Shown: positions 24,751-47,085 of the stretch, piece after piece | Numbering within the stretch: position 1 is the first letter of the stretch | Layout of the letters: every line of letters starts with the position of its first letter | Assembly (NCBI RefSeq): GCF_041361465.1 | Contig: NZ_JBGKAC010000002.1 | Location: 1-64,000 of the forward strand | Direction: 5' to 3' | Source of the DNA: Halobaculum sp. MBLA0143 | GTDB lineage: Archaea > Halobacteriota > Halobacteria > Halobacteriales > Haloferacaceae | Length of the DNA stretch: 64,000 nt | The notes under the pieces: generated by a model | Database searches by the model: none | The model's input: the letters and a program-made list of their open reading frames with translations, nothing else | What the model was told of the DNA's origin: nothing | Position numbers and translations under genes: made by a program

Positions 24751-24767
24751 ACACGCGACGACAACAC

Positions 24768-26195: not shown

Positions 26196-26215
26196 CGACG
26201 GCCGGTGAACGGCCC

Positions 26216-26231
26216 CCCGGGATCTCCCGGG
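26216..26231 (+). promoter_or_regulatory. intergenic hairpin
   Basis: CCCGGG pairs with CCCGGG around a four-base ATCT loop, 21 bases after the stop of the previous gene and about 70 bases before the next start. It may be a processing or termination signal. No T-rich tract follows. Confidence 0.35.
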
Positions 26232-26299
26232 TCGAATCGCGCGAGCGAACAACGACCGACCGACTGGACGACACGACACAGATCGACAATTCACAACAC

Positions 26300-28336: not shown

Positions 28337-29152
28337 ATGCAACTCACACGGCGCACACTGTTGGCCGCAGTCGGACTCGGATCGCTGGGGGTCGGGACGG
28401 CCACCCTCGGACGGCAACGGCCACGGTTCACGAACTACAGCTACGCACAGACGAGTGGGCTCCCGGAGTCGGTGGTCCGGGTGGCCTGGTACGAACGCTA
28501 CAACGGCGTCTTCCAGGAGCGACAGAACGGCACGACCGACCCCGGACTCGACGCGACGCTCGACCCGGAGACGGACCCAGCGTACGTCGACGACCTCGCC
28601 GCGGCCGCAGACGGCCCGGTGTTCTCGTTGTCTGGTGTGCTCCCGGGCGACGACGGCGTCGTGATCGTCGGACTGGAGACGACCGCGACGGACGACCTGC
28701 TCGCGGACGAGATCGACATCTACCTCCAGACGACGGTGACGGCCGACGGCGAGGGGGAGTTCGTCGAGCCGGAGCAGGCCGCCGGCGACACGACGGCGAC
28801 GGACGGTGAGCTCGACGACGAACTCCTGGTGACGGTGTGGCGCGACGGCTCGCCGTTGGGCACCTGTGACGGTGAGGTCGACGTCACCGAGACGGTGACC
28901 GTCCCCGAACAGCCCGCGAGCGTGGCGTTGGGTGCTGGCGGCGCTGGTGCCGACGCGGGCGTACTCGTCGTGACGGGGCTGACGCCTGGCGCACCCCGGT
29001 GTGTGTCGTTGGCGTGGCGGTTCCCGTACGACGCGTCGACGAACCGCTCTCAGGGAGACTCCCTGGGGTTCGACGCCGTGTTCGCGGCAGTGCCGGCGGG
29101 CGACGGCAGCCCGTTCGAGACGGCGACCGGAGGTGAGGATGCGACTCAGTAG
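28337..29152 (+). CDS. TasA-like exported protein, first gene of export module A
   Basis: A 271-residue protein with a Tat-type signal LTRRTLLAAVGLGSLGVG but without the FFSD cleavage box. The mature part keeps the family elements VLPGDDGVVIVGL, TVWRDGS and the C-terminal RSQGDSLGFDAVFAAVP. A paralogue at 40450-41199 has the same length and order (WYERYNGV versus WYTRYDGV near the start). The stop overlaps the next gene by 14 bases, so translation is coupled. It is probably a filament subunit or cap processed by the module's own signal peptidase; that is inference. Confidence 0.78.
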   Translation: MQLTRRTLLAAVGLGSLGVGTATLGRQRPRFTNYSYAQTSGLPESVVRVAWYERYNGVFQERQNGTTDPGLDATLDPETDPAYVDDLAAAADGPVFSLSGVLPGDDGVVIVGLETTATDDLLADEIDIYLQTTVTADGEGEFVEPEQAAGDTTATDGELDDELLVTVWRDGSPLGTCDGEVDVTETVTVPEQPASVALGAGGAGADAGVLVVTGLTPGAPRCVSLAWRFPYDASTNRSQGDSLGFDAVFAAVPAGDGSPFETATGGEDATQ

Positions 29153-29765
29153 GCGGGGGCTGTTGGCGGGCGTCGCGGCCGGGACGGCGGCACTGGGCGG
29201 CGCAGGAACGGGCGCGGTCGTCCGGGACCGCGAGACGGTCGAGAGCGCGGTCGACGCCGGGCAGTTGGACGTGCGGGTGGCCTACTGGACGGACGCCGGC
29301 GCTGGGATCGACCCGACGCAGCCGGACGGCGTCGTCGACGGCCCGACGGTGACGCTCCCGGCAGTGGCACTGACGGACGCGGCGGCGACGGAGACGACGG
29401 TCGTCAGAGTGGAGCCCGTCGACGGATTCGACCGACCGGTCGCGCTGTCGATTCGAGCGACGACGCCGCAGACGACGGCGACGGAGACGGTCCGGGTCCG
29501 GCTGTCGACGGCGACGGCCGACGGCAGTCCGACCGAGACGTTGGCCGACGACACACTGTACGGGTTCGCGCAGGCGACGCCGCTGGTGGTCGACGACGGC
29601 AGCCGAACGGACGGCTGTGTCGCCACCCCGGTGACGCTGGCTGCACGGTTCGACCCCGCGGGGTTCGTCGGAATTGCAAGCGCCGATCTGACCGTGACCG
29701 TCGCCGCCGAGCAGTGTCTGTCGGCACCGACGGCCGCGCTGACCGACTCGGGGTGGTTCGAGTGA
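29139..29765 (+). CDS. TasA-like exported protein, second gene of export module A
   Basis: A 208-residue protein with the Tat-type signal LSRRGLLAGVAAGTAALGG. The mature part is beta-rich, with the paired cysteines at positions (RTDGCVATPV; AEQCLSAPT) where its paralogue (41196-41828) has also cysteines. It overlaps genes on both sides (14 bases upstream, 4 bases downstream), so the module is one translationally coupled operon. No catalytic motif is visible. Confidence 0.75.
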   Translation: MRLSRRGLLAGVAAGTAALGGAGTGAVVRDRETVESAVDAGQLDVRVAYWTDAGAGIDPTQPDGVVDGPTVTLPAVALTDAAATETTVVRVEPVDGFDRPVALSIRATTPQTTATETVRVRLSTATADGSPTETLADDTLYGFAQATPLVVDDGSRTDGCVATPVTLAARFDPAGFVGIASADLTVTVAAEQCLSAPTAALTDSGWFE

Positions 29766-31057
29766 CCCGCGAGACGCGCGAGACCCGCAGAGGGCGTGAA
29801 CCGGACGACGACGAGCCGGCGTCGGCGGCGACGGACCGCCGGCAGACGGCACGGCGGATCGCGGCCATCGGGGGGACGGTCCTGCTCGTCGCGGCGGTGG
29901 TGCCGTTCGTCGTGTTCGCAGTGCCGCAGTTGGTCGGGGCGAACTACGGGTTCGTGATCCTCTCGGGGAGTATGGAGCCGGCGCTGTCGACCGGCGACGT
30001 GGTGATCGTGGACGCGAGCACGGCCGTCGGCGTCGGCGACGTGGTGACGTACCGCAACGGGCGCGAGGTGCCGACCACCCACCGCGTGGTCGAGGTCGTA
30101 GACGGTGCCTACCTGACGCAGGGGGACGCCAACGAGAACCCGGACACCCGGCTCGTCTCGCCGGGGGACGTGCTCGGCGAGGTGACGCTGTCGATCCCGT
30201 TGATCGGCTACGTGATCCTCTGGGCGAACACCCCGGTCGGCTACGTCACGCTCGTCGTCGTGCCGTTGCTCCTGTTCGGCGGCTCGGAGCTGTACGGCTG
30301 GATGCGCCGCGGTGACGACGCAGACGGCGATGCGGACGACGACACGGACGAGCCCGTCGGCGACCCGGCGACGGACGCTCCCGACACACCCCCGGCGGCC
30401 GTCGTGACGCCACGAGAGACTGGGGCTCCGACGGCCGACGGCGGCCGACGCCGACCACCCGAGCCAGCGACAGACGGGGCCGTGATGGAGGCGATGGAGA
30501 CGACAGACGCGACCGTGATGGAGGCGATGGAGACGGCGAGCGGAACTGCGGCGGACGGCGACGGCGTCACGTCGCGGACGCCGCCGGCCGAGCCGGCGTC
30601 GGAGCCGGCGTCGGAGCCGGCGACGGTGTCGGTCGCGGAGACGGATCTCACACTGAGCGCGCTCGCGGCGGGTGGGCTCGCGGCGTACGCTGGCTGGAAC
30701 GTGTACGGCCAGGTGTCCGTCGGCGCTGCGCCGGACGCGGTCGCGGTCGGTGCGGCGACGGCCGGGCTACTCGGCTGTCTCGCCGCAGTGTACGTCACGC
30801 TCGACGGCCGGAGACGGGCGAGTGCCGCCCGGGAGGCCGTCGCAGCCGCGACCGCAGCGCAGTCGGCAGAGACGACAGGGACGACAGAGACGACGACTGC
30901 TACGACGACGGACGCTGCTGTGACTCCGGTGTCGTCGCCCGCGGAGTCGGAGGCCGACGAGGAGGCCGACAGCGAGGGCGAACTGGACACCGAGAAGAAC
31001 GAGTCGGACGAGTCGGACGAGTCGGACGAGTCGGACGGCGACGGGGGGGCACCGTGA
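29762..31057 (+). CDS. SipW-type signal peptidase I of export module A
   Basis: A 431-residue membrane peptidase. Residues 30-60 form a membrane helix, followed by the catalytic serine in LSGSMEPALSTGD, the second conserved box PTTHRVVEV with the histidine that replaces lysine in archaeal and SipW enzymes, and GDANENPDT. A second membrane helix follows, then a long acidic tail and another hydrophobic segment near 300-345. It should cut the signals of the TasA-like proteins encoded around it. Paralogues with the same core are at 41825-43048 and 56153-57292. The GTG start overlaps the previous stop by four bases. Confidence 0.88.
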   Translation: MTRETRETRRGREPDDDEPASAATDRRQTARRIAAIGGTVLLVAAVVPFVVFAVPQLVGANYGFVILSGSMEPALSTGDVVIVDASTAVGVGDVVTYRNGREVPTTHRVVEVVDGAYLTQGDANENPDTRLVSPGDVLGEVTLSIPLIGYVILWANTPVGYVTLVVVPLLLFGGSELYGWMRRGDDADGDADDDTDEPVGDPATDAPDTPPAAVVTPRETGAPTADGGRRRPPEPATDGAVMEAMETTDATVMEAMETASGTAADGDGVTSRTPPAEPASEPASEPATVSVAETDLTLSALAAGGLAAYAGWNVYGQVSVGAAPDAVAVGAATAGLLGCLAAVYVTLDGRRRASAAREAVAAATAAQSAETTGTTETTTATTTDAAVTPVSSPAESEADEEADSEGELDTEKNESDESDESDESDGDGGAP

Positions 31058-32466
31058 GCCGACCGGTGACGGTGGTGGTCGTGGCGGCGGTGGTTCTAGC
31101 GGCCGCGACCGCCGGTGCCGGCCTCGGCAGTCTCGCGCTCGTGAGCGACACGGAGACGGCGGTCCAGCCGCTCACGGTCGAGATCACCCCCGTCCCGACA
31201 CCGACGCCAGTCGTCTCGGCGTTTGGCCTCGGCGTCGTCTCGGTGGACGACGACACGACGAGCGACGAGGAGACGGAACTGCCCGTGGTCGACGTGGTCG
31301 GCAACGAGACGACACCGGCCTCCGACGAGAGTTCCGAGTCTGAGGACGCAGTCGAGACGGCCGAGACGGCCGTCGAGGACGCGGACGAACCGACGGACGA
31401 CGAAACCGTCGGAGACGACGTGGACGATTCGGACGGGAACGAGACGGTCGAGCCCGAGTCGAACGGGAACGAGACGGTCGAGCCCGAGTCGAACGGGAAC
31501 GAGACGGTCGACCTCGAAATCGGTGACAACGAGACGGTCGACCCCAAGTCGAACGGCAACGAGACAGTCGACCTCGAAATCGGTGACAACGAGACGGTCG
31601 AACCCGAGTCGAACGGGAACGAGACGGTCGAACCCGAGTCGAACGGGAACGAGACTATCGATCCCGAATCGAACGGCAACGAGACGGTCGACCTCGAAAT
31701 CGGTGACAACGAGACGGTCGACCCCAAGTCGAACGGCAACGAGACAGCCGGGATCGCACCCGACGGCAACGAAACTGTCGAACCCGAATCGAACGGGAAC
31801 GAGACGGTCGAGCCCGGGTCGAGCGGGAACGAGACGGTCGAGCCCGGGTCGAGCGGGAACGAGACGGTCGAGATCGACGACGAAGCCACGGACGACCCCG
31901 CCCCGGGAGACCCGAACGGCGGCGACGGCAACGCGACCGCCGGTGACACGCCGGACGACGGCACCGACCCAGATCCGGAGTCGGACAGGGACACCGAATC
32001 CGTGCCCGAGGGCGGCCCCGACGACGACGTGTCGAACGCGGACGACGCCGCCGCCGACGCGAACGCCTCGACTGACGACTCGGATACGTCCGACGAGACG
32101 GGTGACTCCGACGACGACACACCGAACGACCCGGCCGACACCAGCTCGACCGAGAGTGGTGCCGACGCGGACGAGACGGACGATCTGATCGACGAGACCA
32201 CAGACGAATCCGACGGTACAGACGCGGACGGCACGGACGACGCGGACGGCACGGACGACGCGGACGACGCCGAGGAGACGAGCGAGAGCGAGCCCGACGA
32301 CTCGGAAGCCGAAGCGACAGACGACTCCAGTGGCACAGACGCTGCCGACGGCGTCGACGACACGGACGGCGACACGGCCGAGGCGGGCGACGCCAGCAGC
32401 GAGGAGGAGACGAGCGAGACCGAAGCCGAGGCGACCCGGGACGACCGGGGAACGGGCGACGCCTGA
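31054..32466 (+). CDS. anchored acidic protein with 15 N-glycosylation repeats
   Basis: A 470-residue protein. It starts with a hydrophobic helix ending in a SipW-like LALVSDTET. It continues with an array of ten-residue units of the type NGNETVEPES (31441-31860) and then about 200 residues rich in Asp, Glu, Thr and Ser. Each unit carries an Asn-Glu-Thr sequon, 15 in the array, so the stalk could be densely glycosylated. The protein is the last member of module A and corresponds to the 116-residue protein at 43041. It may be a surface spacer or anchor. The start overlaps the peptidase stop by four bases. Confidence 0.76.
   Translation: MSRPVTVVVVAAVVLAAATAGAGLGSLALVSDTETAVQPLTVEITPVPTPTPVVSAFGLGVVSVDDDTTSDEETELPVVDVVGNETTPASDESSESEDAVETAETAVEDADEPTDDETVGDDVDDSDGNETVEPESNGNETVEPESNGNETVDLEIGDNETVDPKSNGNETVDLEIGDNETVEPESNGNETVEPESNGNETIDPESNGNETVDLEIGDNETVDPKSNGNETAGIAPDGNETVEPESNGNETVEPGSSGNETVEPGSSGNETVEIDDEATDDPAPGDPNGGDGNATAGDTPDDGTDPDPESDRDTESVPEGGPDDDVSNADDAAADANASTDDSDTSDETGDSDDDTPNDPADTSSTESGADADETDDLIDETTDESDGTDADGTDDADGTDDADDAEETSESEPDDSEAEATDDSSGTDAADGVDDTDGDTAEAGDASSEEETSETEAEATRDDRGTGDA
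31441..31860 (+). repeat. 14 tandem 30-bp coding repeats
   Basis: Fourteen full units of 30 bases follow each other without a gap, and a fifteenth begins at 31861. Each starts with GAGAC and ends with GGNAAC or GACAAC. Several units are identical (for example those at 31801 and 31831, and at 31591 and 31621), which implies recent duplication or gene conversion. A two-unit superpattern (VDLEIGDNET next to VDPKSNGNET) occurs at least three times. Confidence 0.9.
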
Positions 32467-32669
32467 TGGATCGTCCCCGGGGGGGAGGTCGACTCCCCGG
32501 GACCGCACCGGGCGCGACGCGGCGGAACGTGCTCGTCTGGCTGTCGTCCCTCTACGTGGCCGCGCTCGTCGCGGGGTCGATCCGGTCGGTGGGCGTGTTC
32601 CGAGGCGGTCGAACGGTGTGCGAGCGACGGCTCACACGCCGAGCCGGAGCCCGGACATCACCGCGATGA
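32466..32669 (+). CDS. possible small membrane protein
   Basis: A 67-residue frame whose ATG overlaps the stop of the repeat protein by one base. It has one hydrophobic segment (NVLVWLSSLYVAALVAG) and basic ends. Its end overlaps the convergent membrane gene by 38 bases. The basic composition is unusual here, so it may be noise; position and the membrane helix are the only support. Confidence 0.3.
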   Translation: MDRPRGGGRLPGTAPGATRRNVLVWLSSLYVAALVAGSIRSVGVFRGGRTVCERRLTRRAGARTSPR

Positions 32670-33246
32670 TCCCGAGCATGGCGGCGGCCTCGAACAGTCC
32701 GACCGCGAGGATCTTCTTCTCGACGGACGCCAGCGCCGACTCGTCCGTGTCGGAGGCGGTCCGGAGGTAGTACTCCCGGAGGTGGAGTCGGTTGGGCACG
32801 GCCAGCCCGAAGAAGAACAGTCCCCACCCGGACGCGAGCGCCAGCGTCGGCCAGGTGCCGCTGTAGCCGTACGCCAGCCCGGCGTCGCCGCTCAACAGGA
32901 GCGTGCCGGAGACGACCGTCGCCAGACTCGCGCCGAACACGAAGAAGATCACCTTCGGCGTCAGCCGCCGGGTCACCTTCCGGGCGGCGTCGTCGTCCAA
33001 CCCACCCAACACCGGGCCGACGACCGCCGGAAACACGAGCGCGAAGCCGAACCAGAGCGCGCCGGCGGCGACGTGGGCGTAGAACAACCCCGCGGTAGAG
33101 CCCAGCGCCGCCGCGACGGCGACGACCCCCAGCGGCACCGCCACGCTCCCGGCAGCGAACGCCGAGTTCGCACGCTGCGCCAGGTGTGTCACTCGTTCGA
33201 CGACGTTTCCGTCTCGTGGCACTCCCGTCTCGTCTACCGTTGCCAT
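32632..33246 (-). CDS. membrane protein resembling DUF2269/CopD
   Basis: A 204-residue protein with about five transmembrane helices. The segment FYAHVAAGALWFGFALVFPAVVG with a histidine in the first membrane helix, and the following polar loop with KVTRRLTPKV, resembles DUF2269 or CopD-type proteins. The ATG at 33246 is selected because the longer frame upstream is arginine- and cysteine-rich and not protein-like. Nothing nearby suggests copper handling. The role is unknown. Confidence 0.66.
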   Translation of the reverse strand: MATVDETGVPRDGNVVERVTHLAQRANSAFAAGSVAVPLGVVAVAAALGSTAGLFYAHVAAGALWFGFALVFPAVVGPVLGGLDDDAARKVTRRLTPKVIFFVFGASLATVVSGTLLLSGDAGLAYGYSGTWPTLALASGWGLFFFGLAVPNRLHLREYYLRTASDTDESALASVEKKILAVGLFEAAAMLGIIAVMSGLRLGV

Positions 33247-33387
33247 GTCAGTGCGTATGGAGGAATCCGACGTAAAGTTTGATACTGCGTGACATGTCAG
33301 GAGGGGGCACTGTGGGGCGCACGCGGTCGTGTGCTGCGCGGGGTCGAGAACAGAATCCACTTGCCCGCGGGCGGCGGAACGTAGCGT

Positions 33388-34461
33388 ATGGACAGACGTG
33401 CCTTCCTCCGGACGGGAGCGGCCGTAGGGGCGGTGGGTCTCGCGGGCTGTCTCGGCGGGTTCGAGACGGAACAGGTCGGCCAGCCGCCGATCCCGGAGGA
33501 CCGTCCGGACGGGGTGTACGTCCCCAGCCACGTCGAGGGGATGGCGATGGTCGGGACGGCCCGCGAGGGTGACTACGCCTTCGGGCTGACGTACAGCTAC
33601 GCCCACCGGTTCTGGAACGTCGTCGGCGACGAGACCTCGCTGACGGCGGTCGGCGAGGAGGACGACGTTCACCTGATGGCCAGCGTCTGGGACCCGGAGA
33701 CGGGGAGAGTTCTGCCGGAGACGGGGCTGTCGACGGCGATCTACCGCGACGGCGAACTCGTCACGCAGGAGGCGATCTACCCGATGCTGTCACAGCCGAT
33801 GGGGTTCCACTACGGCGCCAACTTCGGGCTGGCGGGCGACGGCGACTACACGGTGGAGCTGAGCGTCGGCGCAGTTCCCACCCGGAAGACCGGGAGCTTC
33901 CGCGGACGGTTCGACGAGCCCGTGACGGTCGAACTGCCGTTCTCGTACAGCCGGGCGGACAGAGACGAGATCGACTTCGAGATCACGCCGGACGACGAAG
34001 CCGCGACCCCCGGCGCTGTCTCTCGGATGGAGATGGAGATGCTGCCGGACTCCCGAGCGCCGGCGGTCGGCGAACTCCCGGGGAACGTCCGCGGCACAGT
34101 CGAGAGCGACGACGCGGTCCTCGCCGTCACCGTCTTGGACGAGCCGCCGGCGGGCGTCGACGGCGACGGCCAGTACCTCGCAGTCTCCGCCCGGACGGAG
34201 CACAACCGGATGTTGATCCCGGCGATGGGGCTCCGGGGGCGACTCCGGCGCGACGGCGACACCGTGTTCGACGGCCGACTCCGACGGACGCTCGATCCGA
34301 ACCTGGCGTACCACTACGGCGCGGTCGTCGACGGCGTCGAGTCCGGCGACGAACTCGAGCTCTCCGTCACGGTCCAGCCACAGACTGCCCGCCACGAGGG
34401 GTACGAGACCGCCTTCGGCGGTGTCTCCGGTCCGATGCCGGACGCGACGCTTACGCTGTAG
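33388..34461 (+). CDS. Tat lipoprotein of the P19/Tp34 iron-transporter type (DUF7350-like)
   Basis: A 357-residue lipoprotein with signal MDRRAFLRTGAAVGAVGLAG and lipobox LAGC. The segment YVPSHVEGMAMVGTAREGDY and the following HLMASVWDPETGR resemble the periplasmic Fe(II)-binding P19/Tp34 family; a Met-rich EMEMEM-like stretch (MEMEMLPD) follows. The second half is another beta domain typical of haloarchaeal DUF7350 proteins. Divalent metal binding at the cell surface is the likely role. No permease gene is adjacent. Confidence 0.78.
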   Translation: MDRRAFLRTGAAVGAVGLAGCLGGFETEQVGQPPIPEDRPDGVYVPSHVEGMAMVGTAREGDYAFGLTYSYAHRFWNVVGDETSLTAVGEEDDVHLMASVWDPETGRVLPETGLSTAIYRDGELVTQEAIYPMLSQPMGFHYGANFGLAGDGDYTVELSVGAVPTRKTGSFRGRFDEPVTVELPFSYSRADRDEIDFEITPDDEAATPGAVSRMEMEMLPDSRAPAVGELPGNVRGTVESDDAVLAVTVLDEPPAGVDGDGQYLAVSARTEHNRMLIPAMGLRGRLRRDGDTVFDGRLRRTLDPNLAYHYGAVVDGVESGDELELSVTVQPQTARHEGYETAFGGVSGPMPDATLTL

Positions 34462-34711
34462 TCGCTCGTCCACCCCGAGCAGCAATCTCGACGAAGTTGT
34501 CGAACACCAGACTCGCCTGCGCGGCCGCCGCGACGGTGTCGTCTGTGAGCTCCGCCAACAGCGCCGTCTCTCGCTCCGGATCGAACTCCTTGCCGCGAAT
34601 CACCCACGCTGCAGTCTCGCGGTCGTACTCCGGGTGGAACTGGACGCCGTCGCTGTCGCCCACCCGGAACGCCTGAACCCCGGTGTCGACGACTGCGACA
34701 CTGGGCTGCAC
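34451..34711 (-). pseudogene. C-terminal remnant of a class I glutamine amidotransferase
   Basis: The 86-residue fragment contains AFRVGDSDGVQFHPEYD, with the catalytic His and Glu of the Cys-His-Glu triad, and then helices ending LVFDNFVEIAA, as in GMP-synthase-like amidotransferases. The N-terminal half with the nucleophile cysteine is absent: upstream bases show no amidotransferase-like frame. Such proteins are about 230 residues, so about two thirds are lost. It overlaps the end of the convergent lipoprotein gene by 11 bases. Confidence 0.7.
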
Positions 34712-35118
34712 GTCCGTCTGTACGCCGCCGGCGGCGCTACAGTTTCGCTGCTCTTGTACAGCTCACGCAGTACTAGCGTGTCGGCGCTCGGTGTCCACGG
34801 GTGTCACCGCGGTCGTCGTCGGGCTCTGTCGGCGACGCCCCGTTCGCGGAGCTCGTGTAGCACCTCGTCGTCGACCGCCGACGCTCGACACGGATCCTCG
34901 GAGCCGACCACGCGTCCCCGTCGCTCGTCTGGGCTCGACCGACTCACCACGAACGACCACGACGCTCGACTCCTCCCGAGCGACCCGACCACCGACGCGG
35001 GCGTGTCGGACGAGGCTGACACCACCGCTCGCGCGCCGGCGAGAAACACAGATCACGTCGTTGATGGTTCGAGCCTGCCGAAAAGTGTATACCGAGAGAA
35101 TTCTTACCGTGGTAGAAG
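34712..35118. other. 407-base gap with no convincing gene
   Basis: Several short frames are open on both strands, but all are arginine-rich and none resembles a known protein. An AT-richer stretch GTGTATACCGAGAG at about 35084-35097 lies 20-35 bases before the next gene and may be its promoter. The region likely contains decayed sequence left with the amidotransferase remnant. Confidence 0.35.
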
Positions 35119-35442
35119 GTGGCGCGAGTGATAGACAGCAGTGACGGCGGGAGCCGCCTCGACCGGAGAGTGCTGGATCGAACGTTCGACGCTCTGGCAC
35201 ACGCGCGCCGGCGGCCGCCGTTCGGGGGTCGAGAGTCGACGGGTGCACCGTCCGTCGGCGAGGCAGAGCTCCCGGGTCGCGAGACGGTAGCGGTGTCGAC
35301 CGGGCGCGTCCACGTGCCGAAGCCAGACGGCGCCGGGTTCGTCGCGTACGACTCCGACCGGGACAGCATCGGGTGGACGAGCGACATCGGCGTGGCGTCG
35401 TCTGTGCTAGACGAGCCGCTGGCCCGCGGGGGGACGGCGTGA
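35119..35442 (+). CDS. shortened or decaying DUF7344-like winged-helix protein
   Basis: A 107-residue frame. The first helix (RTFDALAHARRR) and the C-terminal wing (HVPKPDGAGFVAYDSDRDSI) match DUF7344-type domains, but the middle, where helix-turn-helix residues should be, is replaced by Gly/Pro-rich PPFGGRESTGAPSVGE. It therefore seems partly degraded. It starts at GTG and overlaps the HalOD1 gene by four bases, the usual pair in haloarchaea. I call it a coding gene of doubtful activity. Confidence 0.5.
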   Translation: MARVIDSSDGGSRLDRRVLDRTFDALAHARRRPPFGGRESTGAPSVGEAELPGRETVAVSTGRVHVPKPDGAGFVAYDSDRDSIGWTSDIGVASSVLDEPLARGGTA

Positions 35443-35765
35443 GCGACAGTCCGGAAGAGGAGGTGGACCAGTCCGGACAGCCGTCCCTGCTGTACAGCCG
35501 ACAGTGGCACCCGGTCGAACGTCGGTCGTTCGACCCCGAGGACGACGCCGATCTCGTGACGGTCGTGATCGGCGGGGTCGCGGCCGCCGAGGGAGTCGAC
35601 CCGACGGCGGTGGCGACCCCGCCGCTGGGGTCGGTGATCGACGTGGAGGCAGTGGAACGCGCCCTGTTCGAGAGAGGCGGAGTCGAGGCCGCGGCGATGC
35701 GTTTCGTCTACCGCGGGACGCTCGTAGAGATTCGTGGCGACGGCCGGGTGACCGTGTTCCAGTAG
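35439..35765 (+). CDS. HalOD1 output-domain protein
   Basis: A 108-residue protein consisting of a HalOD1 domain (residues 30-107: VVIGGVAAAEGVDPTAVATP, followed by helix IDVEAVERALF and strands ending GRVTVFQ). HalOD1 is a haloarchaeal signalling output domain whose biochemical action is unknown. The GTG start is inside the previous gene's stop (GTGA). A second stand-alone HalOD1 gene is at 38502-38780. Both lie beside a DUF7344 gene, so the pair probably acts together. Confidence 0.82.
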   Translation: MSDSPEEEVDQSGQPSLLYSRQWHPVERRSFDPEDDADLVTVVIGGVAAAEGVDPTAVATPPLGSVIDVEAVERALFERGGVEAAAMRFVYRGTLVEIRGDGRVTVFQ

Positions 35766-35766
35766 C

Positions 35767-35922
35767 TCACTCGTCGACCGTCGGGCGGTGGAGTTCCTCG
35801 ACACGCCCGGGGTGGACCTCCTCGACGTGGGTACACACTGTCCGGTGCCGGACCTCCGGATCGATTCCCCGACCCTCCAAGCCACAGAACGGACACGCCG
35901 TCAACAGCTTCTCCCTCGGCAT
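35767..35922 (-). CDS. 51-residue zinc-finger microprotein
   Basis: Translation of the minus strand from ATG at 35922 gives 51 residues. They contain CPFC followed later by C-x-x-H (RTVCTHVEEVH), a compact zinc-finger pattern, and the acidic residues common in haloarchaeal small zinc proteins. A TATA box lies 24-31 bases upstream, which fits a leaderless transcript. It lies tail to tail with the HalOD1 gene. Such microproteins are frequent in haloarchaea and often regulate motility or biofilm traits, but this one is not assigned. Confidence 0.7.
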   Translation of the reverse strand: MPREKLLTACPFCGLEGRGIDPEVRHRTVCTHVEEVHPGRVEELHRPTVDE

Positions 35923-35945
35923 CGTATTCGTTTACACGCTTCGTA

Positions 35946-35953
35946 GTAATAAA
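35946..35953 (-). promoter_or_regulatory. TATA box of the zinc-finger microprotein
   Basis: The minus-strand sequence TTTATTAC lies 24-31 bases upstream of the ATG at 35922, in an AT-rich island (35925-35965) within GC-rich DNA. Confidence 0.6.
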
Positions 35954-36112
35954 CCCTACATCTAACGCAGCGCCGTGACAGAACTCCGTGGCGAGTCGGC
36001 TCTCCTGGTAGTACTGAAACAAGACTGCACTTCCGATCGGTTAGAGCCCCCTCCGACCAGAGCGGTCAGCGAGGCGAAAGCCGTAAGCCTCGGCGGGTTG
36101 GAGTAGAGTACG

Positions 36113-37072
36113 ATGACCGACGGGGCGGAGTCAGAAGTGGACAGTTCGAGCAAGGCTACCGACTCGGCGCCGGACGGCGAGCAGTCGTTGCCCGGGGGAG
36201 AGGAGACGAGACAGCGGAACGGGCGGTCGGCGACCGAAGGGGAGACGACACGACGGAACGGGCGGCCGTCGACTGGGAGAGAGGAGACGACACGACGGAA
36301 CGGGCGATCGTCGACCGAAGGGGAGACGACACGACGGAACGGGCGGCCGTCGACTGGGAGAGAAGAGACGAGACGCGGCGAGCAGTCGGCGACCGGAGGG
36401 ACCGCTCCGGGCCTCGGCGACCGCGACGACGACGTTGGGTTGGGACTGTTGGACGAGCAGATGGGACCGAGTTCGGCGCTCGCGCACCTCTACCGCGGCG
36501 AGCTCCACCGGACGAAGTTCTGGCGCGAACGGCTGGACCGGACGACCAACTGGGCGGTGATCCTGATCGCCGCGATCCTGACGTGGACGTTCTCGGCGGA
36601 GTCACACCCCCACTACGTCGTTCTGGTCGGCGTCGCCGCGCTGACGGTGTTCCTGATCGTCGAGGCGCGCCGCTACCGCGGCTACGACATCTGGCGCTCG
36701 CGGGTGCGTGACCTCCAGCGGAACGTGTTCGCACCCGGACTCGACCCCGACTGCGAGCCGTCGGAGGGGTGGCGCGAACGGCTGAGCGCGGCGTACGCCT
36801 CTCCGGAGCCGGCAGTGACGGCGGAGGAAGCGGTCGCGCACCGACTCCGACGCATGTACCTCCCGCTCGTGTTCGTCGTGCTCGGTGCGTGGGTGATCCG
36901 CGTCACCGCGTTCGTCGCGGAGCCGTGGCCGGCCAGCGCCGCCGTCGGCGACGCGTCCGGAGTGGTGGTGACGGCCGTCGTCGCCGGCTACGCGCTCGTG
37001 GCCGTCGTCGTCGCCCTCAGACCCCGGACCTGGCACGGTGACGAGGAACTGCGTCACGACGAGCGAGCGTAG
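36113..37072 (+). CDS. DUF2270 membrane protein with a repetitive N-terminus
   Basis: A 319-residue protein. Residues 105-319 form the DUF2270 domain: MGPSSALAHLYRGELHRTKF, one helix pair (NWAVILIAAILTWTFSA; YVVLVGVAALTVFLIVE), an RDLQRNVFAPGL segment, and two more helices. The first 100 residues are unusual: a repeated RRNGRxSTxxxET unit with net positive charge in an otherwise acidic proteome. The DNA repeat is at 36240-36365. The family function is unknown. It stands alone, just before a convergent regulator. Confidence 0.8.
   Translation: MTDGAESEVDSSSKATDSAPDGEQSLPGGEETRQRNGRSATEGETTRRNGRPSTGREETTRRNGRSSTEGETTRRNGRPSTGREETRRGEQSATGGTAPGLGDRDDDVGLGLLDEQMGPSSALAHLYRGELHRTKFWRERLDRTTNWAVILIAAILTWTFSAESHPHYVVLVGVAALTVFLIVEARRYRGYDIWRSRVRDLQRNVFAPGLDPDCEPSEGWRERLSAAYASPEPAVTAEEAVAHRLRRMYLPLVFVVLGAWVIRVTAFVAEPWPASAAVGDASGVVVTAVVAGYALVAVVVALRPRTWHGDEELRHDERA
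36240..36365 (+). repeat. in-frame direct repeats in the DUF2270 gene
   Basis: A block starting GGGGAGACGACACGACGG recurs nearly unchanged at 36240 and 36318 (78-base period, 44 of the following bases conserved), with a third shorter match between them at about 36285. The repeat encodes RRNGR(P/S)ST units and is the kind of repeat that can change length by slippage or recombination. Confidence 0.75.
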
Positions 37073-37078
37073 CTGCCG

Positions 37079-37453
37079 TCACTCCGGCCGTCTCCACACC
37101 CTGACCACCGGACCCTCGGTGGCGACGGCCACGCGGACGTCTCGGACCGCGGCCGTGTACGTCGTCGGCGGGCGACCCTCACACGGGAGTCGACTCCCCT
37201 CGTGGAGCAGTCCGGCCTCCGAGAGTCGGTCGAGCTTCCGGTACGTCGTCGAGGTCGGCACGTTCGTCGCGGCCGCGATCTCCTCGACGGACCGGTAGCG
37301 GTCGCGGACGGCGGCGAGGATCGCCCGACAGTCGTCGTCGGCCAGCGCAGAGAGCACGGCCGCTGCGCGCTCGTCCGGTAGTGTCGTCGACCCCTCGAGG
37401 CGCGTCCTGACGGCTGTCGTCGGGACTCTCCGTCGCTCCTGTGACTCGCTCAT
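37079..37453 (-). CDS. winged-helix transcriptional regulator
   Basis: A 124-residue cytoplasmic protein with a winged helix: DDDCRAILAAVRDRYRSVEE then AAATNVPTSTTYRKLDRLSE, the helix-turn-helix, and LLHEGSR as the wing. This is the ArsR-like/DUF7342-type haloarchaeal class. No ligand cysteines are apparent at the usual ArsR positions. The ATG at 37453 is favoured over one eight codons upstream because it gives an acidic MSESQE start. Convergent with DUF2270. Confidence 0.76.
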   Translation of the reverse strand: MSESQERRRVPTTAVRTRLEGSTTLPDERAAAVLSALADDDCRAILAAVRDRYRSVEEIAAATNVPTSTTYRKLDRLSEAGLLHEGSRLPCEGRPPTTYTAAVRDVRVAVATEGPVVRVWRRPE

Positions 37454-37579
37454 ACCCGTCTCTGGTCGCCGGGGCACCTCGTTACCCGCCGCGTAACGGC
37501 ACCACGAGCCGACTGAAGGCGTTGCCTACTGGCCACGTAGGCACGGACAACTTCCGGTGTCGCCGCGTCGCGGCTGCCG

Positions 37580-38218
37580 TCACCGCCGCCACAGCGTCGA
37601 CAGCCGCGTCACGGCCACCGTCACCGCCAACGGCAGCCGAGCGTCCGACAGCGTGTGATCCACCCGTGTCCAGTCGACTCGCTCGACACAGCACATCGCC
37701 AACAACGACCCGCTGGTGACCGCGGTCCAGGCTGGCGCGGTCGCGGGCGCCAACGTGGTCCCCGCGAGCGCGATCGTCGCCGCCAGCCCGCCCAAGAGGT
37801 GTCGGCGACGGAGGCCGTCGGCCAGCGCCGGGTCGGTGTCACGCCCTTCCAGTCCGTCGAGAAACGCGATCAACCGGTCTGCCGGCGGCCGCCGTACTAC
37901 GTCACCCCGGCTGCGATCGTAGTCGATCACACCCTCGTCTGCCAGCTTCGGGAGGTGGTTCTGGTAGAGGCTGATGTACACTCGTTTCCGTTGGGCCGAC
38001 GTGAGCAGCGTCGGCTCCGTGTCGTTCTCCTCGGCCGCGATCCGTTCCGCCAGTTCCGACAGCGTCGTCTCCGGTGTGTCCGCGAGTGCCGACAACACTG
38101 CCCGCCGTCTGCCGTTCTTCAGCAGCCCGAACGCCTCGTCGTATCCCAACTCACTCGTCGTCTCCGTCCCGACTGCAGTCGTTTCTCCAGTCTCACTGCC
38201 GTCTGGTGTCGTACTCAT
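37580..38218 (-). CDS. DUF7344-type winged-helix protein with membrane tail
   Basis: A 212-residue protein with the winged helix at about residues 22-110 (EAFGLLKNGRRRAVLSALAD; SAQRKRVYISLYQNHLPKL) and a hydrophobic C-terminal part from about 140 to 195. It is encoded downstream of the HalOD1 gene at 38502 on the same strand, with 283 bases between. That gap includes AT-rich TACATAAAT near 38287. A GTG six bases upstream is an alternative start. Confidence 0.78.
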   Translation of the reverse strand: MSTTPDGSETGETTAVGTETTSELGYDEAFGLLKNGRRRAVLSALADTPETTLSELAERIAAEENDTEPTLLTSAQRKRVYISLYQNHLPKLADEGVIDYDRSRGDVVRRPPADRLIAFLDGLEGRDTDPALADGLRRRHLLGGLAATIALAGTTLAPATAPAWTAVTSGSLLAMCCVERVDWTRVDHTLSDARLPLAVTVAVTRLSTLWRR

Positions 38219-38501
38219 CGTGACGCCTCCCTCACACACGGTCCGAGTGTGTCGGAGGTGTGCGTGTGCAGATTCTCTGTTCCGGTACATAAATCCGGGT
38301 CACGGTAACACCACTCGAACTGTCTGGAGACTCGTGGTTCAGATTCCGAAACAAAAATCGATAACGGAGTAGAGAAATGAGTACAGAGTGGACTTTGATA
38401 CGGAGGAACGCCGACTCACCGGACCCGACCGCGAACTGGCGCGCGGTCGGTCACTGTCTCGTCCGAGGCCGGCTCCCCGTCGGTACCAGAGACGGTCGGT
38501 G

Positions 38502-38780
38502 TCACTCGATCCGGTGTTCGGGGGGTACCACCGCGATGCTCCGGCTGTCGACGGTGACGACACAGTCCTCGTACTCGAACTGGACGACCGGGTCGCCGTC
38601 GCCCTCGAACAACGCCTGGACGGCGTCCGGATCGATCGCCTCCGACAGCGGCGTCAACGCGTCCGGCGCCGTTCCACGTAGTTCGGCGACGGTCGTCACG
38701 ACCGCGACTGTCAGCTCCGTCCCGGGGTCCCACTCCCGGACGGTCGACTCCTCCTGTCTGGCCCCGTTCGGATCTCGCAT
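38502..38780 (-). CDS. HalOD1 output-domain protein
   Basis: A 92-residue protein made of one HalOD1 domain: ELTVAVVTTVAELRGTAPDA, helix IDPDAVQALF, strands VVQFEYEDCVVTVDS. The domain covers nearly the whole chain. It lies upstream of a DUF7344 regulator on the same strand, repeating the pair seen at 35119-35765. The biochemical action of HalOD1 is not known. Confidence 0.82.
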   Translation of the reverse strand: MRDPNGARQEESTVREWDPGTELTVAVVTTVAELRGTAPDALTPLSEAIDPDAVQALFEGDGDPVVQFEYEDCVVTVDSRSIAVVPPEHRIE

Positions 38781-38919
38781 CCGTGTCTACCCTTCGACTA
38801 CTCACTACCCATCGATAAAGTAACTATCGACTACTGGGGCTCCGGCCGGCGGAGCCGTCGGCGACGAGCGGGGAAGCCACTGCATAACCAACTCCACTGC
38901 CCGCCTCTCTCCTCCGAGG

Positions 38920-39771
38920 ATGTCACACGACCGATCACTCCGGACCCGACTCCGGAGTCTGGCACGCAGGGTTCGTCCGCCGGAACACACCGGAGAGAAC
39001 CGTTGTCGTCCGTGTACCGCACTGAACACGCTGTTGGTCGCGCTCGTCGGCGGCGCGCTCGCGTCACAGTGGCCGCTCGTCGGCGGCGCGACCGTCGTCG
39101 TCGGGCTCGCGTCCGTCGCCGTCCGGGGGTACGCCGTCCCGTACACGCCGACGCTCACCCGTCGGTACCTCCCGGACCGGGTCTGGGCGTGGTTCCACGC
39201 CCCGACGGTGTCCGACGAGGACGATCCGAACGCCGAGCGCGTGCTCGTCGCCGCGGGGATCCTCCGTTCGACGGGGGAGGGGGACGACGAGCTCGAGCTG
39301 TCGCCGCCGTTCCGGTCTCGGTGGCAGTCGGCGACGGATCGGCTCGGCACCGCGGCCGACCCGGACGCGCTGCTCCGGCTGGCGGAGTTCCCGGACGTGG
39401 AGCCGTCTGCGGTGAGCTTCCGCCGGTCGCCCGAGCAGTTCGAAGCGTTCGTCGACGACACTGCCGTCGCGGAGTGGGAGTCTCCGACGGCCGCTCGGCT
39501 CGACCTGGCGGCCGCCCCCCTGGTCGCCCGTCGGTCGAGCCACTGGGGCTCGTTGGACTTCGAGGCACGCACGACCGTGCTCGCGGGGCTCCGGCTGTGG
39601 CTGGACCGGTGTCCGGACTGTCGGGGGCAGGTGGCGCTGTCGCGCGAGACGGTGCCGTCGTGTTGTCGTGACGTGCCGGTGGTCGCCGGTGGCTGTGTCG
39701 ACTGCGGGACGCGACTGTTCGAGGCGCCGGTGCCCCGGGACGGCGAGCGAGCGAGACAGACGAACGACTAG
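38920..39771 (+). CDS. membrane protein with CxxC zinc-ribbon ends (paralogue)
   Basis: A 283-residue paralogue of the protein at 21840. It has CRPCTALN near residue 30, two membrane helices, the nearly identical YTPTLTRRYLPDRVWAWF, a soluble acidic middle part, and the C-terminal zinc ribbon (CPDCRGQ; SCC; CVDCGTR). Its last codons overlap the convergent DUF7344 gene by four bases. The similarity is strong in the membrane core and the ribbon and weak in the middle, which points to an old duplication. Confidence 0.73.
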   Translation: MSHDRSLRTRLRSLARRVRPPEHTGENRCRPCTALNTLLVALVGGALASQWPLVGGATVVVGLASVAVRGYAVPYTPTLTRRYLPDRVWAWFHAPTVSDEDDPNAERVLVAAGILRSTGEGDDELELSPPFRSRWQSATDRLGTAADPDALLRLAEFPDVEPSAVSFRRSPEQFEAFVDDTAVAEWESPTAARLDLAAAPLVARRSSHWGSLDFEARTTVLAGLRLWLDRCPDCRGQVALSRETVPSCCRDVPVVAGGCVDCGTRLFEAPVPRDGERARQTND

Positions 39772-40301
39772 CGGTCGAACAGGAGCCGGCGGTACAGCCA
39801 CCGTCGGTGCCACACTCTGGCAATACCGACACCCGCCAGCGCCGCCAGCGAGACGACGGTGACGACGAGCCCGTCCAGTTCCGCGAGCGGCGGCACGTCC
39901 AGGTGGATCAACAACAGCCCCCACAGCCCGGCGACGGCGACGTTCCGGTACCACTCTGCCCACGTCATCCCGCCGGGGGCGGCGTGGCGGTAACGGTCCA
40001 ACGCCCGCGCCCGGCGACGCAGCCGGACGACCTGGTGGTCGCGGTCGTACGCGACGACGTCGGCGGCCGCCAGCCGCGGGAGGTGTGTCTGGCGCAGCGA
40101 GTTGTACACGCTCTGGCGGAGCCGTTCTGGCGGCGGACGCTCGCTCGTCTCCCGCCGGACGACGGCGTCCGTCAGCTCCGCGAGCGAACACCGTCCGGCG
40201 GCGCGAAGCTGCACGAGCGTCCGCCGTCTGCGGTCGTTGCCCAGGAGCTCGTACGCCTCCGTCGGCTCGATCTCGACGGGCGCGGGTGTGGACTGCTGCA
40301 C
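39768..40301 (-). CDS. DUF7344-type winged-helix protein with membrane tail (paralogue)
   Basis: A 177-residue protein with winged helix at about residues 15-100 (EAYELLGNDRRRRTLVQLRA; SVYNSLRQTHLPRLAAADVV) and two membrane helices at about 118-160. It forms with the zinc-ribbon gene at 38920 a convergent pair that repeats the pair at 21840/22849. It is divergent from the TasA-like gene at 40450, just as its paralogue at 22849 is divergent from the first SipW gene at 23801. This suggests control of the adjacent export module. Confidence 0.78.
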   Translation of the reverse strand: MQQSTPAPVEIEPTEAYELLGNDRRRRTLVQLRAAGRCSLAELTDAVVRRETSERPPPERLRQSVYNSLRQTHLPRLAAADVVAYDRDHQVVRLRRRARALDRYRHAAPGGMTWAEWYRNVAVAGLWGLLLIHLDVPPLAELDGLVVTVVSLAALAGVGIARVWHRRWLYRRLLFDR

Positions 40302-40449
40302 GGTTCGTCGCCGGGTGGACGCCCGGCACCGAAGTAACTACACGCCGGCTACTTCGGCGGGAGCTGGCCGTAGCTGGCGCCTAACGAAGACGAGTGGGGT
40401 CGTAGCGGGCGACGGCGTGACCCCCCCGACGGGCCGCCGGAGCACACAC

Positions 40450-41199
40450 ATGGACAGGCAGACTCGACGCGGCCTCCTGATTGCGGTGGGCGGACTGACT
40501 GCGACAGTCGCGGCGGTAGGCGACCGCCGGTCGTCACCCTGGGGCTACTCGGTCGCCGCGGACCCGGACGGCGACACGGACGACACACGGCTCCGAGTCG
40601 CGTGGTACACGCGCTACGACGGTGTCGTGACGACACAGGACGGTTCGGTCGACGCGGAGACTGCGCTCGATCCGGACCAGACCCCGGCGTACCGCGAGGA
40701 GGCGGCGAGTGCGGTCGTCACTGTCGGCAACGTGGTCCCGGGCGACGACGGCCGCCTGGCCATCGGCCTGCTCGCGGCAGACCGACCGAACGACGACGAG
40801 GGGGTCGCCGTCTGGCTCCGCCCGTCGCTCACCGAGTCCGAGAACGGCGTGACGGACCCGGAGGCGGCGGCGTCGGACGAGGGACCCGGCGGCGAGCTGG
40901 GGGCTGCCCTGGAGACAGTCGTGTGGCGCGACGACGGGCTCGTGGGTGCGTGTGACGGCACGCAGGGGATCGACGAGCCGACGGTCGCCGAGGGCAGTCT
41001 CCGCGGAACGGTCGCGGCGCTGTCGGACGGCTATCGGGTCGCCGACTGTCTCTCGCAGGGGAGCCGCGTCTGTCTGGGACTGTCGTGGTCGCTGCCGGCA
41101 GACGTCGGTGACTACGTCCAGACGGACGAGGCGAGACTGGATCTCGTGTTCGCGGGCGTACCGTGCGGGAGCCCGAACCCCTTCGGAGGGTCGCCGTGA
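40450..41199 (+). CDS. TasA-like exported protein, first gene of export module B
   Basis: A 249-residue protein with a Tat-type signal MDRQTRRGLLIAVGGLTATVA. The core repeats that of 28337: WYTRYDGVV, VVPGDDGRLAIGL, TVWRDDGLVG, and the C-terminal YVQTDEARLDLVFAGVPC. It is coupled with the next gene by a four-base overlap if the GTG at 41196 is used. It opens a four-gene operon with the same order as module A. The two proteins differ by many substitutions, so the modules are old paralogues. Confidence 0.78.
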   Translation: MDRQTRRGLLIAVGGLTATVAAVGDRRSSPWGYSVAADPDGDTDDTRLRVAWYTRYDGVVTTQDGSVDAETALDPDQTPAYREEAASAVVTVGNVVPGDDGRLAIGLLAADRPNDDEGVAVWLRPSLTESENGVTDPEAAASDEGPGGELGAALETVVWRDDGLVGACDGTQGIDEPTVAEGSLRGTVAALSDGYRVADCLSQGSRVCLGLSWSLPADVGDYVQTDEARLDLVFAGVPCGSPNPFGGSP

Positions 41200-41828
41200 C
41201 CGCCGACGGACCGTCGCGGCGACGGCTGTTGGGGGCGCTGACGGCCGCCGCCGGCACGGGGTTCCTGGGGGCGACCGGCGTGTACGCTACCCTGTCGGAT
41301 CGAGAGGTCGTCGGCGGCAACGTGTTCACGAGCGGATCGCTCGGGCTGGCCGTCGGTGCCGCGACCGCCGACGGCGAGCCGCCGGCGCCGCCGACGACGT
41401 TCGAGGACGGCCAGACGCTGTCGGTGTCGTTCGACGACCTGACCCCGGGTGACACGGGTGGGGTGACGGCCGCCGGGCAGGTCTCCGGCGGTGCCGCGCG
41501 GCTGTGGCTGACGGCGACGACTCCGTCGACGCGTCTCGCGGACCAACTCGTCGTGTCGGTGGCGTCCCGGGTGCCGTGTTCGGCGACGGCGACGACGGCG
41601 ATCTACGACGGGTCGCTGTCGGGACTGGGGGCGGCGCTCGGCGACGGGGTCCGGCTGACGACGACCGAGAGCGACGACTGTCTGGACGGTGTCGCCGGCT
41701 GTGTGGAGCTGTCGTGGTCGCTGCCGTCCGACGCGAGCGTCGACGGCGGCACCGCGGCGGCGACGCTCCAGTTCGGCGCACGGCAGTGCCGACACACGAC
41801 ACCGAGACCGGTGGGGTGGTCGCCGTGA
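41196..41828 (+). CDS. SipW-type exported protein, second gene of export module B
   Basis: A 210-residue protein. The signal SRRRLLGALTAAAGTGFLGA ends with the SipW-like box VYATLSDRE. The mature part contains DDLTPGDTGGV, which matches the KPGDxGEV box of the larger TasA-like proteins, and cysteines at positions similar to those of 29139. The GTG at 41196 overlaps the previous stop by four bases; another GTG at 41163 is possible. Confidence 0.74.
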   Translation: MTADGPSRRRLLGALTAAAGTGFLGATGVYATLSDREVVGGNVFTSGSLGLAVGAATADGEPPAPPTTFEDGQTLSVSFDDLTPGDTGGVTAAGQVSGGAARLWLTATTPSTRLADQLVVSVASRVPCSATATTAIYDGSLSGLGAALGDGVRLTTTESDDCLDGVAGCVELSWSLPSDASVDGGTAAATLQFGARQCRHTTPRPVGWSP

Positions 41829-43048
41829 GTGACGACGCGGACACGACGGGACGGCTGCGAACGATCGCGAACGTCCTCGGGACGGTCCTCCTGGTGGCTC
41901 TCCTCGTCCCGTTCGTGGTGTACGCCGCGCCGTCGGTAGTCGGCGCAGATCAGAGCTACACGGTCGTCTCTGGGAGCATGGAGCCGACGATCGGCGCGGG
42001 CGACGTCGTGATCGTGCGACAGGTGCCGCCCGACCGGATCGGGGCGGGCGACATCGTGACGTTCCGCCACGACGGCGGGCGGCTACCGACGACACACCGG
42101 GTCGTCGAACGGGTCACACAGGACGGGGAGCTGTACTTCCGGACGAAGGGCGACGCCAACGAGGAGGCGGACCCGCAGGCGGTAGCGAGTGATCAGATAA
42201 TCGGGCGCGTCCTCGTCACGCTGCCGTTCGTCGGCCACGTCGTCCAGTTCGGCTCGACGACCGCGGGGTTCGTGTCGTTCGTCGTCGCCCCGCTGACGTT
42301 GTTGGTCGTGACGGAACTGCTGTCGGTCGTCCGGAGCGACGGCGGGAGTGGCTCCCTCGGGACGGGCGGCAGGGATGACGACGACGACGACGGCAACGGC
42401 GACGGAGGCGGTCCCGGCGACGACGACCCCGGCGACGACGACGGCTCGGTGCCGCTGCGGATCGACCCGACCGGAGGAGCCACCGGCGAGGCAGAGACGA
42501 CGGAGCCGAGCGGCGACGGACGGGCGGACCCGGACGGGGACCCGAGCGACGACGGCGGCGAGACGGAGCCGGAAGTCGAGCCGCCGCCGCGCGCCCGGAC
42601 CGTCGAGGCAGACGACGAGCGAGCGGGAGACGGGACACGCGCCACAGACGGCGAGCACGCGGCGCGTAACGGGCACGCGACGGGCGATGAACACGCGACG
42701 GCCGACGGACACGCGACGGCCGACACGGACGTGGCCACCGGCGAGGAACTCGCGGAGCGGGGCGAGACGGCCGAAGGGGGTGAGGCGACCGGAGAGAGCA
42801 GTACGGACACGACACAGGCGGCGGCGGACGGCGGCGAGACGGCAGCGGCGCCGGCGGAGGTGGTCGTCACCCGTTCGGACCTACGGCTGTCGGCGGCGGT
42901 GACGGCGGCGTTCGCTGGCTACGCGGGTTGGGTGTTGTTCCAGACGGGTGTGTCGGCCTGGAGCGTCGGGGCGTTCGTCGCCGGGCTGTTGGCGGTCGGG
43001 TTCGTCCTGACGTTCTACTACGCCGCCGGGGGTGAGGGGGGTGACTGA
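41825..43048 (+). CDS. SipW-type signal peptidase I of export module B
   Basis: A 407-residue membrane peptidase paralogous to the one at 29762. It has a membrane helix at about 12-45, the catalytic serine in VSGSMEPTIGAGD, PTTHRVVERV with the conserved histidine, and GDANEEAD. A second helix, a 190-residue acidic linker with many repeats of ATADGHATAD type, and a final membrane segment (SAAVTAAFAGYAGWVLFQ) complete it. It overlaps its neighbours on both sides. It should process the TasA-like proteins of its own cluster. Confidence 0.88.
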   Translation: MSDDADTTGRLRTIANVLGTVLLVALLVPFVVYAAPSVVGADQSYTVVSGSMEPTIGAGDVVIVRQVPPDRIGAGDIVTFRHDGGRLPTTHRVVERVTQDGELYFRTKGDANEEADPQAVASDQIIGRVLVTLPFVGHVVQFGSTTAGFVSFVVAPLTLLVVTELLSVVRSDGGSGSLGTGGRDDDDDDGNGDGGGPGDDDPGDDDGSVPLRIDPTGGATGEAETTEPSGDGRADPDGDPSDDGGETEPEVEPPPRARTVEADDERAGDGTRATDGEHAARNGHATGDEHATADGHATADTDVATGEELAERGETAEGGEATGESSTDTTQAAADGGETAAAPAEVVVTRSDLRLSAAVTAAFAGYAGWVLFQTGVSAWSVGAFVAGLLAVGFVLTFYYAAGGEGGD

Positions 43049-43391
43049 CACACCGTTGCGGCGGATCGTGGCGCTGGCGCTGGCCGTCGCGGTGGCGGCG
43101 TCGGCGGGCGCCGGCGTCGCGTCGTTCGCGGCGTTCACGGACACGGAGCAGGTCCAGGCGGAGTTCGGCGCCGCGAACGCCCCGGCGACGGCCGGCAACG
43201 ACGGCGGGACGGCGACGGCCACCGCCGGTAACGACGGGGGAACACCGACGGCGACGGCCGGCAACGACGACGGCGGACCGAGCAGCGTCGAACGCCCCGA
43301 CGGCGGCGAGGACAGTGGCGGAGACCCGCTCGTGGTCGTGGAGACGACGCGGATGGCGACGACGGCCCGGACGGTGCGAACGGTCGGTTGA
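43041..43391 (+). CDS. small SipW-type anchored tail protein of export module B
   Basis: A 116-residue protein with one N-terminal membrane helix ending in a SipW-like FAAFTDTEQV, then three copies of ATAGNDGGT-type repeats and an acidic tail. It corresponds in position and layout to the 470-residue repeat protein at 31054, but its stalk is only 40 residues and lacks NET sequons. The GTG at 43041 overlaps the peptidase stop by eight bases; a GTG three codons upstream is an alternative. Confidence 0.66.
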   Translation: MTDTPLRRIVALALAVAVAASAGAGVASFAAFTDTEQVQAEFGAANAPATAGNDGGTATATAGNDGGTPTATAGNDDGGPSSVERPDGGEDSGGDPLVVVETTRMATTARTVRTVG

Positions 43392-45038: not shown

Positions 45039-45114
45039 TCCGGAGTCACCCCACGCGTACCACACGCCAACCGCCAGCGCCGTCGGGTGAGGACGGCACA
45101 CAGACAACAGACAG

Positions 45115-46773: not shown

Positions 46774-46889
46774 GACGGGCGGGCGGAGCGAACGACGCGA
46801 GCAGTTCGAACGACGCACACCCGGGATCGTGGGTGAGAGGGGGTGTCGTGCGGCGTGGGCGGTGACGGTCCAGGTGTGCGTCTGCAGTC

Positions 46890-47069
46890 TCCCACGCGGA
46901 CGCGGCGGGGTCGACCCGCCGCCGGCCGCGTACGGCGTCTCCGACGCGAGTCGGAGGCTCGTGATACGGCGTGACGTATCACGACGTCCCCTGGGTTGGG
47001 GACTCGTGACACGGGCTCTGCCGTGTGACGGCGGTTCGACCCCGTCGGTGGGACTCCCCCGAGAGGGGG
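46890..47069 (+). promoter_or_regulatory. T-loop leader RNA element, copy 1 (largest)
   Basis: The closing stem is TCCCAC (46890-46895) with GTGGGA (47048-47053). Inside lie five hairpins: GCGGCGGG/CCCGCCGC (46902-46922), CTCCGAC-GCGA-GTCGGAG (46939-46956), CGTGATAC/GTATCACG (46960-46983), GTCCCC/GGGGAC (46986-47003) and ACACGG/CCGTGT (47009-47026). The T-loop hairpin CGGCGG-TTCGACC-CCGTCG (47029-47047) joins the closing stem directly. A CCCCC-GAGA-GGGGG hairpin (47056-47069) follows, 17 bases before the ATG at 47086. Confidence 0.75.
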
Positions 47070-47085
47070 GAGACACGACCGAACC

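Follow-up and report, generated by a model that had tools for sequence, protein, structure and literature searches.

Candidate TasA-type fibre operons of separate ancestry in the haloarchaeon Halobaculum sp. MBLA0143

Biofilms of Bacillus have a protein scaffold made of TasA-type fibres, and the structure of an archaeal relative is known from Pyrobaculum. The window analysed here, the first 64,000 nucleotides of contig NZ_JBGKAC010000002.1 of Halobaculum sp. MBLA0143, carries two runs of four overlapping genes, each with its own signal peptidase: what do these runs encode, and how did one genome come to hold both? The gene names hide the system: above cut-off, neither Pfam nor NCBIfam has a family for the genes that we call T, U and N, apart from a short leader model. 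The literature searched, which included few subscription papers, yielded no mention of SipW or TasA-like proteins alongside haloarchaea. We consider it likely that each module forms, along with the S genes next to it, one TasA-type fibre operon of haloarchaea, and the two complete sets offer a concrete, testable candidate for an archaeal counterpart of the Bacillus biofilm fibre.

Two four-gene modules and their subunit arrays

Both modules run on the + strand in the order T-U-P-N, as a sequence-only reading of this DNA had described. Module 1 consists of T1 (28337-29152), a predicted TasA-fold protein with a Tat twin arginine and without a SipW-type site; U1 (29139-29765), a second putative exported protein with a Tat twin arginine, recognised by its conserved position; P1 (29762-31057), an archaeal-type signal peptidase I with an acidic C-terminal extension and further membrane helices, whose C-terminal region matches P2 by BLASTP; and N1 (31054-32466), 470 residues comprising a SipW-type leader, a short alternating-hydrophobic stretch and a disordered, acidic, sequon-rich tail. 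In module 2, T2 (40450-41199) is TasA-like with a Tat twin arginine, is 35% identical to T1 over 262 aa (E 1.5e-28) and was also matched in the whole-genome search; U2 (41196-41828), again a second putative exported protein, has a near-threshold SipW-type leader (TIGR04088 17.9 bits against a cut-off of 19, and 22.9 in the genome search); P2 (41825-43048) is the archaeal-type signal peptidase I; and N2 (43041-43391) is a short stalk gene of 116 residues, with a SipW-type leader above the TIGR04088 cut-off (20.8 bits). Neighbouring genes overlap by 14, 4 and 4 nt in module 1 and by 4, 4 and 8 nt in module 2 (later GTG starts), in keeping with the 4-14 bases given previously; these lengths depend on start choice, and longer possible starts enlarge some of them. 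Across the modules P1 and P2 are clear homologues, U1 and U2 match weakly (E 0.009), and N1 and N2 have just the leader type in common, their tails being unrelated in sequence, which bears out the remark that the last genes differ greatly.

Likeness of the peptidase cores had also been noted. Against the archaeal signal peptidase I model (TIGR02228, cut-off 51.85 bits) P1, P2 and the more distant P3 (below) score 87, 111 and 54 bits, respectively, and all three keep the S-x-M-E-P (S-G-S-M-E-P), T-H-R and G-D-A-N motifs. This family has five matches in the genome, three of them within the window. We call the peptidases SipW-like rather than SipW because scores of 83 and 95 bits against the SipW equivalog NF046067 fall short of its 190-bit cut-off.

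Three S genes upstream of module 1 (23801-28009) and four downstream of module 2 (44058-49936), all on the + strand, had gone unmentioned. S1a (23801-24673) is a candidate TasA/camelysin-like subunit with a Tat twin arginine and a SipW-type leader; S1b (24768-26195) is TasA-like with an inserted VWA domain, placed by alignment and by PF00092 (69.7 bits, residues 224-387); and S1c (26300-28009), whose orthologues in other loci are 54-83% identical, carries a VWA-like insert that scores 20.7 bits, below the VWA cut-off. S1a and S1c also match PF12389 above cut-off. The module 2 array comprises S2a (44058-45038), a TasA-like subunit by its structural model; S2b (45115-46773), TasA-like with an inserted VWA domain (PF13519 39.7 bits, PF00092 38 bits); S2c (47086-48624), TasA-like with a C-terminal addition and the best TIGR04088 score in the genome (37.5 bits); and S2d (48785-49936; TIGR04088 29.3 bits). 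The VWA inserts of S1b and S2b and the VWA-like insert of S1c sit in the second half of the TasA-like domain. Over the first 226 residues S2a and S2b (44058-46773) share 78% identity, and only S2b has the insert; the pair looks like the product of a recent tandem duplication in which that insert was gained or lost.

The SipW-cognate leader model TIGR04088 finds nine matches in the whole 3.58 Mb genome, all at 23.8-49 kb of the window: the seven S genes, all above cut-off, N2 and, weakly, U2. The S leaders combine a Tat motif (S/T-RR-x-x-L) with GLGTSAF(F/Y)(S/A)D in module 1 or the nearly identical GLGTSAYFSD in module 2, and SipW-type cleavage would be expected within this sequence. Among haloarchaeal relatives the model matches all 30 S leaders at E 0.1 or better and 0 of 34 T proteins, and T is therefore not filed as a SipW substrate.

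Predicted fold, the gene after the peptidase and a proposed fibre

Searching solved structures with S and T sequence profiles alone gave insignificant matches (TasA 5of1, E 0.58), so that the fold match rests on predicted models. The AlphaFold2 model of S2a, built from 43 sequences with a modest mean pLDDT of 63, has TasA as its three best structural matches (Z 11.0, 10.8 and 10.2), the next, unrelated match lying at Z 6.2; TasA also takes the top two places in Foldseek, with modest E-values of about 1e-3 to 1e-4 and about 15% sequence identity. For T1 (34 sequences, pLDDT 76) the three best matches are again TasA, at Z 8.3-8.1, close to the level that the structure-comparison tool calls common. 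Both models also match AbpA of the archaeal bundling pili of Pyrobaculum calidifontis (7ueg; Z 6.1 for T1 and 5.0 for S2a), a TasA-like fold that is not the best match here. Both S2a and T1 are thus predicted to adopt the TasA jelly-roll fold. The PF12389 matches of S1a and S1c could be taken to mean that the S proteins are proteases ('Camelysin metallo-endopeptidase') or other surface proteins, secreted and unpolymerised; however, these matches span roughly 50 of 196 profile positions, at the start of the profile, which is the leader region, and the predicted fold is that of TasA, making this reading quite improbable.

We then considered N. In the collected loci it directly follows 101 of 111 SipW-type peptidases, some loci being counted twice under two collections, and 89 of these have a junction of 1, 4, 8 or 11 nt; the same loose follower rule is satisfied by 147 of 1386 other genes (11%), a background that includes the T, U and P junctions. 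TIGR04088 is by far the commonest family among N leaders (19/44), and the leader profile of N aligns to that of S with 95% probability. The TapA model TIGR04087 matches one of the 44, weakly (E 0.014), and N is therefore not a TapA family member. After T-x-A-L-L-S-D-x-E, bulky hydrophobic residues occupy positions +4, +6 and +8 in 86%, 53% and 92%, respectively, of 36 non-redundant N proteins, as against 7% in the tails, a pattern resembling one exposed strand. The remainder is low-complexity, acidic or S/T-rich, no folded domain was found in N, and N-glycosylation sequons exceed shuffles in 64 of 85 tails; the N1 tail has 18 against 5.8 in shuffles, and the N2 tail none.

The last gene had been read as one N-terminal helix with an acidic stalk. 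In its sequence that helix is closer to a SipW-type leader than to an ordinary membrane anchor. N might nevertheless stay anchored in the membrane by an uncleaved helix, as a stalk tethering or shielding the peptidase and donating no strand: it has no twin arginine, adjoins P directly and begins with a hydrophobic segment. Such a stalk would need neither the SipW-type motif that ends the helix nor the conserved alternating-hydrophobic stretch behind it; both lower the standing of this explanation, which we judge unlikely. We favour an N with a SipW-type leader and a donor-like N-terminal strand. In B. subtilis, TapA1-57 (leader plus 14 mature residues) suffices for biofilm formation (PMC10151520), and TapA is thought to supply the first donor strand (PMC9674648). 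Taking these findings together with the leader and hydrophobic pattern of N, we infer that N acts as the N-terminal part of TapA does and may start or anchor a fibre.

The computed leaders, predicted fold, synteny, phylogeny and N sequence pattern suggest how cleavage by P, polymerisation and the roles of T, U, N and the VWA domains might fit together. The S proteins would be fibre subunits that leave the cell by the Tat route, the VWA heads on some of them serving adhesion. The module's signal peptidase would cut just upstream of F/Y-F-S-D-x-E, freeing an N-terminal strand, and S subunits would join head to tail, each strand inserted into the next subunit, by analogy with B. subtilis TasA, which polymerises by donor-strand exchange (PMC9674648), and with P. 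calidifontis AbpA. T, with a predicted TasA fold and no SipW-type site, may serve as a specialised subunit at the base or the end. With its SipW-type leader and one donor-like strand, N would initiate the fibre or anchor it, and its disordered, acidic, often glycosylated stalk could span the S-layer.

The B. subtilis tapA-sipW-tasA operon (PMC9674648, PMC10151520) likewise sets a SipW-type peptidase beside TasA-fold subunits with SipW-type leaders, with an overlapping peptidase junction and an accessory gene whose N-terminal stretch follows a leader. The haloarchaeal clusters differ in the Tat motif added to the leaders, in having several subunits per cluster, some with VWA, in the extra gene T with its predicted TasA fold and in the order S-T-U-P-N; TapA, moreover, has a folded domain, and none was found in N. 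The B. cereus cluster sipW-calY1-bc_1280-calY2 is similar in serving several camelysins with one SipW, whereas the part of PMC10151520 that covers it reports no Tat signals, VWA or stalk gene.

Conservation across haloarchaea and ancestry of the two modules

Matches to the T profile, which picks up S proteins as well, occur in 39 of 195 genomes sampled evenly across the order, and a scan of 84,980 species genomes yielded 59 named loci. Synteny in other haloarchaea had been proposed as a check, and the same order recurs in dozens of loci, beyond chance: fetched regions read S(1-5)-T-U-P-N, with the U position conserved among loci, and S-T-U-P-N is found in Haloferacaceae, Haloarculaceae, Natronomonadaceae and Halobacteriaceae, the cluster always accompanied by a peptidase. 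The operon type thus recurs in many genera, among them Halorubrum, Halobellus, Halonotius, Halorientalis, Natronomonas, Haloglomus, Halorarius, Haloarchaeobius and Halobacterium. Several genomes (G183, G188, G144, G146 and G021) have two clusters, each with its own peptidase. The conserved N opens a simple genetic test of fibre start and S-layer crossing. In one of these two-cluster genomes (G144; locus L089, 7781-10581) two SipW-type clusters face each other within about 3 kb. The peptidases of several loci (L126-L142) are short and SipW-like and form a sister clade; they often adjoin DUF7344 genes, and N-like genes come after them too, in some cases with no evident TasA array.

DUF7344 genes also stand beside the clusters of the window, all of those named here on the - strand: one near cluster 1 (21022-21579; PF24035 103 bits) encodes a putative regulator and another is divergent from module 2 (39768-40301; 79.6 bits). 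Seven DUF7344 proteins in the genome exceed the PF24035 cut-off, five of them beside these clusters (about 21-56 kb of the window; 21289-55796), and the domain occurs somewhere in 100 of 108 fetched peptidase loci. These counts suggest that DUF7344 proteins may regulate haloarchaeal fibre clusters, possibly as a shared regulator.

The two modules had been called duplicated. They are indeed homologous, with the same gene order and T proteins still recognisably alike, and they lie 12 kb apart on one replicon (contig C2, 589 kb, the other contig, C1, being 2.99 Mb), all of which could be expected had one ancestral module been copied within this genome and the copies then diverged. The trees, however, place the modules in separate T and P clades. 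P1 shares a clade with members of three other families (100/94), with P2 outside it, in a P tree rebuilt without P3 and the chromosomal peptidases because of their very long branches in the first tree. T1 and its orthologue in a congener (G196) nest among Halorientalis (99/96), and T2 pairs with that congener's second module (100/98). AU tests reject, under the models used, uniting the genus's four P (p 0.007) or four T (p 2e-10) sequences. The congener has orthologues of both modules in the same gene orders, about 300 kb apart, together with module 2's unusual downstream S genes. Trees, AU tests and congener speak against a recent local duplication, which we reject, and the reading of one ancestral module copied in this genome and then diverged is very improbable. 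Phylogeny did not point to the opposite extreme either, independent assembly of the modules from unrelated parts. We take the modules to be old, separately inherited versions of one system. From the trees, AU tests and congener, module 1 was probably gained as a block from a Halorientalis-like or Haloarculaceae-like source, while module 2 is the genus's other, older set.

A third peptidase beside Taf-type pilins

The pair at 56153-57976 had been taken for a third, incomplete version of the module. The pair exists, but it is ruled out as such a version, since P3 and its neighbours belong to another system, a separate pilus locus. P3 (56153-57292, - strand) is a signal peptidase of another lineage, on a long branch outside the SipW-type clade, and P3-like peptidases elsewhere lie within a few kb of Taf-type pilins in about 11 of 16 loci. 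N3 (57299-57976, - strand) is by its sequence an exported protein with a D/N-rich tail and has no family match. Next to them, D1-D4 (58340-63577, + strand) are DUF1102/Taf-type pilin-like proteins, of which D1 and D3 match the solved structure 9P0A ('Pilin') at E 6.5e-14 and 1e-12, respectively. Their scores (TafE 53-75 bits of 155, TafA 40 of 190) miss the Taf equivalog cut-offs, marking them, as far as their sequences tell, as relatives of Taf pilins rather than equivalogs. Modules 1 and 2 differ from Taf-type fimbriae in both pilin family and peptidase lineage.

How many export lines, then, does the window hold? It has two leader types, TasA-type in modules 1 and 2 and Taf-type in cluster 3, and separate TasA-type and Taf-type lines are plausible. 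The peptidase of each module does keep close company with a putative substrate set of its own, in this genome as elsewhere, as had been supposed. Three truly separate lines, each peptidase restricted to its own substrates, is a doubtful proposition. In its favour, every cluster keeps its own peptidase even in two-cluster genomes, and P3 is of a distinct lineage adjoining other pilins. Against this, the S1 and S2 leaders are near-identical around the cut site, so that cross-processing by P1 and P2 is likely, and a clearly different leader (TGAFTSV) occurs in the P3 line only.

A broader picture, which we put forward tentatively and as somewhat less probable than not, is that haloarchaea widely carry a Tat-exported, SipW-type-processed TasA machine. 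In it the undescribed N would contribute one donor strand, borne on a stalk that is disordered and often glycosylated, starting the fibre and tying it through the S-layer, with VWA subunits as adhesive heads, and one cell could have a pair of these machines, differing in ancestry, as well as a Taf-type pilus. Between the clusters there is also an archaellin gene (54366-55163, - strand; PF01917, 91.8 bits), which brings the region to at least three types of filament by gene content. The DUF1102/Taf-type array itself runs past the window end, up to about 66.6 kb of the contig, and within it D2 is fused to a beta-helix and D4 to a LamG domain.
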